64,000 nucleotides of DNA from Pseudomonadota bacterium. GTDB taxonomy: Bacteria > Pseudomonadota > Gammaproteobacteria > Steroidobacterales > JBCBZW01. The notes beneath the pieces are model-generated. The model searched no databases. It saw only the letters and a program-made list of their open reading frames with translations, and was not told the DNA's origin. Each line of letters starts with the position of its first letter. The first letter of the stretch is position 1. The stretch spans positions 310,001-374,000 of the forward strand of contig JBCCWS010000002.1 of NCBI GenBank assembly GCA_039193195.1, written 5' to 3'. Made by a program: the position numbers and the translations under genes. Of the stretch, positions 32,717 to 35,241 are shown one piece after another.

Positions 32717-34146
<1,430 letters not shown>

Positions 34147-34509
34147 ATGTCCGACAAGACCGACAAGGCCCTGAAGCCGATCACCCTCGCCGTTAGTGCC
34201 GCGCTGGTTACCAGCTTCGGTGCCTCGGTATTCTCGGCTTCGGCCAGCGCCAACCCCTTCTCTGCAGCGGATCTTTCCAGCGGCTACATGGGCGAGACGC
34301 TGGGTGAGGGCAAGTGTGGTGAAGGCAAGTGCGGCGGTGAGAAGGGCGAAGAAGGCGCCTGCGGCGGCGACAAGGGTGAGGAAGGGGCCTGCGGCGGCGA
34401 CAAGGGTGAGGAAGGGGCCTGTGGCGGCGACAAGGGCGAAGAAGGCGCTTGTGGCGGCGACAAGGGTGAAGAGGGCAAGTGCGGCGAAGGTAAGTGTGGC
34501 GCTGCCTAA
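34147..34509 (+). CDS. HvfA family oxazolone/thioamide-type RiPP metallophore precursor
   Basis: 120 residues, Cys-rich with Gly, Glu and Lys. An N-terminal signal-like hydrophobic part (about 11-36) is followed by NPFSAADLSSGYM (36-48), which is the conserved block of HvfA-type leaders. The core has eight cysteines: EGKC pairs at Cys57/62 and Cys112/117 and four EGAC units at Cys72, 82, 92 and 102. Known HvfA cores are EGKC repeats whose Cys is modified by an MNIO (DUF692) enzyme with a DUF2063 partner, giving copper-binding thiooxazole. No such partner is in this window. AAGGAGAG precedes the ATG. Function here is inferred; a plain Cys-rich metal buffer is the alternative. Confidence 0.8.
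   Translation: MSDKTDKALKPITLAVSAALVTSFGASVFSASASANPFSAADLSSGYMGETLGEGKCGEGKCGGEKGEEGACGGDKGEEGACGGDKGEEGACGGDKGEEGACGGDKGEEGKCGEGKCGAA
34357..34476 (+). repeat. Four 30-base in-frame tandem repeats within the HvfA-type gene
   Basis: Four copies encoding ACGGDKGEEG, with only silent base changes among copies (for example ggcgacaagggtgaggaa versus ggcgacaagggcgaagaa). The protein is exactly repeated while the DNA differs slightly, which suggests selection on the peptide plus slippage or recombination expansion. Confidence 0.85.
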
Positions 34510-34580
34510 TCCCTTAAGCTAAAAGGGGAGACGGCCGGCGCAGTCCACCCGCAGGTGCTGCGCACGACAGGCCTCGCCGT

Positions 34581-34618
34581 AAACGGGCTCGCGAGTGTGA
34601 TCATTCGCGGGCCCGTTT
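34581..34618 (+). terminator. Intrinsic terminator downstream of the HvfA-type gene
   Basis: AAACGGGCTCGCGA (34581-34594) pairs with TCGCGGGCCCGTTT (34605-34618) over 14 positions with one G-T pair, followed by a T-rich TTGTTGTTG. It separates the HvfA-type gene from tag. Confidence 0.8.
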
Positions 34619-34647
34619 GTTGTTGAAGTGTCGAAAGAAGGTCGCCA

Positions 34648-35241
34648 ATGGCGAAGCGAGGCGCAGTAGCTGGAGAAGATGGGCGCGAGCGTTGCCCCTG
34701 GTGTCTCGGGGGCGAGGGCTACGTGGCTTACCACGATGAGGAGTGGGGAGTGCCCGTGCGCGATGACGCCCGCCTATTCGAGTGCCTGACCCTAGAGAGC
34801 GCCCAAGCGGGGCTCAGTTGGATCACCATCCTGCGCAAGCGTGAGGGCTATCGCCGCGCCTTCGCTGGTTTCGACCCGGTGAAAGTGGCGCGCTATACGC
34901 CGAAGCGCGTAGAGAAGCTCCTGCAGGACGCCTCAATCGTGCGTCACCGGGCCAAGATCGAAGCCGCTATCGGCAACGCGCGCGCCTTCCTCGACGTGCA
35001 GGCGCGTTACGGTAGCTTCGCCAACTGGCAGTGGGATTTCGTCGATGGCGAACCCATTCGCAACAGCTGGAAACACACCGGCCAAGTGCCCGCCAGCACC
35101 GCCCTGTCCGACCGGTTCGCCAAGGCCCTCAAGGCGGAGGGATTTACGTTTCTTGGGACCACCACGGTCTACGCCCACATGCAGGCGACCGGCATGGTGA
35201 AAGACCACCTCCAGTCCTGCTTCCGCTACGGTGAGGTGTGA
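34648..35241 (+). CDS. tag: DNA-3-methyladenine glycosylase I
   Basis: 197 residues. Removes 3-methyladenine from alkylated DNA, a base-excision step. Zinc-binding residues are visible at both ends: Cys and His in RCPWCLGGEGYVAYHDEEWG and His and Cys in DHLQSC near the C-terminus. Central blocks LTLESAQAGLSWITILRKREGYRRAF and SIVRHRAKIEAAIGNA are family hallmarks. The start at 34648 follows a GAAGG and reads straight into the N-terminal Cys motif. Slightly long at the N-terminus compared with the E. coli enzyme. Confidence 0.94.
   Translation: MAKRGAVAGEDGRERCPWCLGGEGYVAYHDEEWGVPVRDDARLFECLTLESAQAGLSWITILRKREGYRRAFAGFDPVKVARYTPKRVEKLLQDASIVRHRAKIEAAIGNARAFLDVQARYGSFANWQWDFVDGEPIRNSWKHTGQVPASTALSDRFAKALKAEGFTFLGTTTVYAHMQATGMVKDHLQSCFRYGEV

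Follow-up and report, generated by a model that had tools for sequence, protein, structure and literature searches.

The precursor gene and its locus

The window analysed here, a 64,000-nt stretch of contig JBCCWS010000002.1 from a bacterium of the order Steroidobacterales (genome G000), carries a gene for a short Cys-rich peptide. The original prediction had described it as an orphan precursor of a ribosomally synthesized and post-translationally modified peptide (RiPP) of the HvfA type, and its open reading frame (ORF), coordinates, motif order and four identical EGACGGDKGE units are all as described there (Table 1).

Table 1. Features of the precursor gene and its flanks (positions in the window)
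Feature	Position	Strand	Basis
Oxazolin/HvfA-type precursor gene, 120 aa, 8 Cys	34147..34509	+	ORF; NCBIfam HvfA match (E 2×10−4, below cut-off); homologues in 61/148 genomes of the order; dN/dS 0.04
Shine-Dalgarno-like AAGGAG, ATG 7 nt downstream	34134..34139	+	Sequence
Predicted Sec signal peptide, residues 1-35, ASASA at end; probably also the recognition leader	34147..34251	+	Sequence; PMC13419390 for leader role
Conserved block NPFSAADLSSGYM, residues 36-48	34252..34290	+	Alignment
First EGKCGEGKCG doublet	34306..34335	+	Sequence, alignment
Four EGACGGDKGE units	34351..34470	+	Sequence, repeat scan
Second EGKCGEGKCG doublet	34471..34500	+	Sequence, alignment
Strong hairpin, probable transcription terminator	34580..34619	+	-31.9 kcal/mol, z = -6.0
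hemB (ALAD), left neighbour, conserved over the order	32717..33718	-	Pfam; synteny
tag (3-methyladenine DNA glycosylase I), right neighbour, conserved	34648..35241	+	Pfam; synteny

The N-terminus of the peptide reads as the n, h and c regions of a signal peptide and is followed by the block NPFSAADLSSGYM, in which F38, L43, G46 and Y47 are invariant in the alignment of precursors. With four EGKCG and four EGACG units, the peptide carries the repeated EGKCG motif of the Buf_EGKCG/oxazolin precursors. Tandem Repeats Finder returned a 30-bp period present 4.9 times at 34330-34476 (score 210) and a further 15-bp period at 34303-34331. At the protein level the four EGACGGDKGE units are the same, whereas their codons differ. 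The AlphaFold prediction was uninformative (mean predicted local distance difference test score 45), with a helix at residues 10-21 as its sole element, at low confidence.

We compared the gene with the precursor of a congener (G001), which has five EGAC units instead of four. The shared part differs by 14 synonymous and two non-synonymous codon changes, corresponding to a non-synonymous divergence (dN) of 0.007, a synonymous divergence (dS) of 0.187 and a dN/dS of 0.039 (NG86), which indicates that the protein repeats are under selective retention while their codons drift. The precursor is a real gene.

A promoter and a terminator of its own had also been predicted. The 428-bp gap to the divergent hemB (33719-34146) makes such a promoter plausible; no sigma-70-type consensus was found upstream of the precursor. 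The strong hairpin downstream is a probable terminator; it was not among the entries of the consensus terminator scan.

Probable maturation enzymes at a second locus

Using the genome's own HvfB, HvfC and HvfX as tblastn queries, we found no gene for a multinuclear non-haem iron-dependent oxidase (MNIO, DUF692), DUF2063 or DoxX protein in the window, in agreement with the original prediction. The latter had suggested a genome-wide search for DUF692 and DUF2063 genes and a second precursor, and had considered a simple Cys-rich protein should no MNIO be present anywhere and no Cys be modified. The search returned exactly one MNIO (E 2.5×10−107), on contig C26, with the genome's one DUF2063 gene adjoining it and a DoxX gene next after; a genome devoid of MNIO is thus not the case at hand. 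All three proteins exceeded the NCBIfam cut-offs (HvfB: 438 vs 360 bits; HvfC: 306 vs 142; HvfX: 194 vs 80), and they provide the same-genome MNIO and DUF2063 partners that characterise Buf_EGKCG/oxazolin precursors. In the MNIO, LRR and ERDF lie exactly 234 residues apart, equal to the distance from R15 to D249 in FonB; by this spacing, with FonB itself unaligned, the captophorin MNIO residues R15, R16, D249 and F250 (FonB numbering from PMC13097082) are present.

No Cys-repeat precursor stands beside the hvfB-hvfC-hvfX operon on C26, and neither a second EGKCG precursor nor a DUF2282 (bufferin) precursor was found in the genome search; candidates on C27, C62, C12 and C4 were rejected as weak matches without a real repeat array. 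Within this genome, the enzyme-free precursor and the precursor-free enzymes match one to one, which strongly supports the earlier suggestion that the enzymes act in trans. The precursor and hvfB-hvfC lie on different contigs and not side by side as in an hvfABCX cluster. This separation is no assembly artefact, since 344 kb and 142 kb of contig flank the precursor on its two sides and 28 kb and 54 kb of C26 flank the MNIO.

Our survey covered 148 genomes from the order, of which nearly all were >90% complete. The precursor was detected in 61 and an MNIO in 116; 60 of the 61 precursor genomes had an MNIO, compared with 56 of the 87 precursor-free genomes (Fisher p 8×10−8, uncorrected for relatedness). 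Precursor and MNIO were within 1.3 kb of each other in only six precursor genomes, five of which belong to one family (f15). They were split in 54: in 52 they were on different contigs, and in the other two a single contig carried both, with coordinates >2 Mb apart. One of these two is a closed genome of 4.06 Mb (G062), where the distance is 1.7 Mb the short way round. Ten precursor loci were retrieved as long stretches (L078-L087), and in these hemB and tag flank the precursor; the enzyme loci of these families have metG, the rnf genes and usually DUF1841 ahead of hvfBCX. Synteny extends over several families at both loci, and in the HvfB tree the genome's own enzyme falls inside a group of split-arrangement relatives. 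Taken together, the order-wide split, the synteny and the tree indicate that the two-locus arrangement is probably old and mostly vertically inherited. The term orphan is therefore correct locally but misleading at the level of the genome: with its enzymes at a distant site and a layout common to most relatives, the gene represents a modest variation on a known system.

A DUF1841 gene and an rnf operon were seen upstream of hvfBCX across families (L005:7637-8071; L088-L097). Some genomes of the order carry a second, distant kind of MNIO (L040-L043), mostly carrying EWD instead of ERDF, and no EGKCG precursor was detected in these genomes.

Proposed modification of the EGKC and EGAC units

We consider it highly likely that the product of the gene is a captophorin/oxazolin-type RiPP precursor that is matured in trans by the unlinked hvfB-hvfC-hvfX on C26, the Cys residues of both EGKC and EGAC units becoming copper-binding thiooxazoles. 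This reading is based on the gene and the selection acting on it, the sole complete enzyme set of the genome, the co-occurrence and split across the order and the EGACG precursors that lie beside hvfBC elsewhere. Characterised homologues are the source for the chemistry, the sequence of the steps, copper binding and buffering. HvfBC turns Cys of HvfA into copper-binding 5-thiooxazoles and prefers the signal-sequence-bearing peptide, in which the signal peptide is reported to serve as leader (PMC13419390). By analogy, HvfC would recognise the signal peptide and the NPF..LSSGYM block of the translated precursor, HvfB would oxidise Cys of the EGKCG and EGACG units to 5-thiooxazoles, Sec would export the modified peptide, and the mature product would bind copper in or beyond the periplasm.

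The residue before Cys (position 3) varies widely in the order: in 65 precursors it is Ser in 277 units, Lys in 233, Ala in 29 and another residue in 11, and several precursors lack Lys units altogether. When 84,980 species genomes were scanned for EGACG pairs with a period of 10, the matches were, chance frames aside, mainly precursors of Wenzhouxiangella and other gammaproteobacteria, with hvfB directly downstream in nearly all and hvfC usually next. A few matches in Planctomycetota, Actinomycetes, Clostridia and one archaeon, none with hvfB in the vicinity, were set aside as apparently fortuitous or in unrelated frames. FonBC turns over EAACGEGACG in vitro, with Ala at position 3, and also accepts Arg or Thr there, while Phe or Glu severely impair the reaction (PMC13097082). 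EGAC is a variant site and nothing exotic; the position-3 counts, the EGACG precursors beside hvfBC and the tolerance of FonBC support the proposal in the original prediction that these repeats define a variant substrate. No paper printing EGSCG or EGACG as a word was found in the literature searched.

In the metagenome-assembled Wenzhouxiangella genomes (L058-L077), EGACG predominates among the Cys units of the precursors, alongside some EGSCG, EGTCG or EGKCG, and hvfB, usually with hvfC, adjoins.

Three findings weigh against maturation in trans of both kinds of unit. The precursor scored 21.8 vs 95 bits with NCBIfam NF050188 and 13.9 vs 19.5 bits with NF050137; the predicted HvfA type holds as homology, below the curated HvfA cut-offs. 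One genome (G135) has a precursor without a detected MNIO, perhaps owing to an assembly gap (470 contigs). Finally, the FonBC result with Ala was obtained with a short double-repeat substrate and an enzyme of another species.

It is unlikely, though worth considering, that the core is mixed, HvfBC modifying the EGKC doublets at the ends and the central EGAC Cys being free thiols or poorly modified, so that one peptide would offer two types of metal site. In G000, G001 and G022, and to some extent in other relatives, EGKC doublets at the two ends enclose a variable number of Ala or Ser units, and FonBC turnover is affected by residues next to Cys (PMC13097082). However, FonBC tolerates Ala at position 3 (PMC13097082), and EGSC-only or almost EGAC-only precursors coexist with or adjoin HvfB-type enzymes, suggesting that Lys is dispensable.

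We regard it as very unlikely that the peptide stays unmodified, as the original prediction also allowed, and is a Cys-rich, metallothionein-like periplasmic metal-binding protein, and that the enzymes are relics or serve something else. No enzyme is encoded near the gene, and PMC12452194 leaves room for unlinked precursors to go unmodified; yet the genome's only HvfBCX set has no other known candidate substrate, and precursor and MNIO co-occur over the order.

Candidate regulatory genes upstream and known systems

In relatives (L078-L087, e.g. L082:7888-9131, plus strand), the precursor is directly preceded by genes for a PRK12517-like extracytoplasmic function (ECF) sigma factor and a DUF3379 protein. 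The DUF3379 protein, with one invariant Cys, is probably the anti-sigma factor of the adjoining ECF sigma factor. DUF3379 was found within 2 kb of the precursor in 45 of the 61 precursor genomes, all of them split or without a detected MNIO, and in none of the six with adjacent enzymes. It is absent from the window's genus (G000, G001), and G000 has no sigma factor above the cut-off of that subfamily. Both genes are missing from the gap at 33719-34146 in this genus, with no DUF3379 remnant beyond a six-residue chance match. The pair appears to have been lost in this genus. Strong dyads from a motif search upstream of 62 precursors proved on inspection to belong to DUF3379 coding sequence, at its 3' end (GSIAIIG), and are no regulatory site. 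No paper on DUF3379 was found in the literature searched, and the term has no occurrence in PMC12452194.

Tentatively, oxazolin biosynthesis may be decoupled in the order, split over two fixed loci, with the precursor under a stress-responsive ECF sigma factor and its DUF3379 anti-sigma factor, the enzymes separately expressed beside rnf, and the window's genus rewired by loss of the pair. DUF3379 would then be a previously undescribed anti-sigma factor, perhaps sensing metal or thiols through its invariant Cys, and peptide dose rather than enzyme dose would set copper buffering, as the enzymes would be expressed separately. The loss would also fit a decaying precursor that has fallen out of use, which is most improbable given the strong purifying selection (dN/dS 0.04) and the intact repeats in both congeners.

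Genome mining that gathers precursors beside MNIO genes would overlook this peptide and related ones. Within the order, the cores form a natural series (all Lys, Lys and Ala, Lys and Ser, all Ser) with similar HvfB enzymes to serve them, so that the contribution of the residue preceding Cys can be tested directly; the sigma-DUF3379 pair of relatives provides a regulatory lead.

As in oxazolin/HvfABCX of nontypeable Haemophilus influenzae (PMC13419390), the precursor has a predicted Sec signal peptide and EGKCGEGKCG, and the MNIO, RiPP recognition element partner and DoxX-like gene fit the curated HvfB, HvfC and HvfX models. Unlike that system, there are two unlinked loci and four EGACG units, and the precursor falls below the HvfA model cut-off. 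With fontiphorin/FonABC of the captophorin class, defined in PMC13097082, it shares EGKCG 5-mer repeats and the equally spaced LRR and D-F residues of the MNIO; in contrast to the fonABC cluster, the enzymes are encoded elsewhere in the genome, and the doublets are separated by single 10-residue EGACGGDKGE units. For Buf_EGKCG/oxazolin precursors, stand-alone genes have already been reported and maturation in trans or no modification proposed (PMC12452194), whereas the repeat described here has 10 residues with one EGACG. Neither two fixed loci across an order nor a sigma-DUF3379 partner was found in the text of PMC12452194. The fixed two-locus layout across the order, the Ala and Ser cores and the upstream ECF sigma factor and DUF3379 genes appear to be new.
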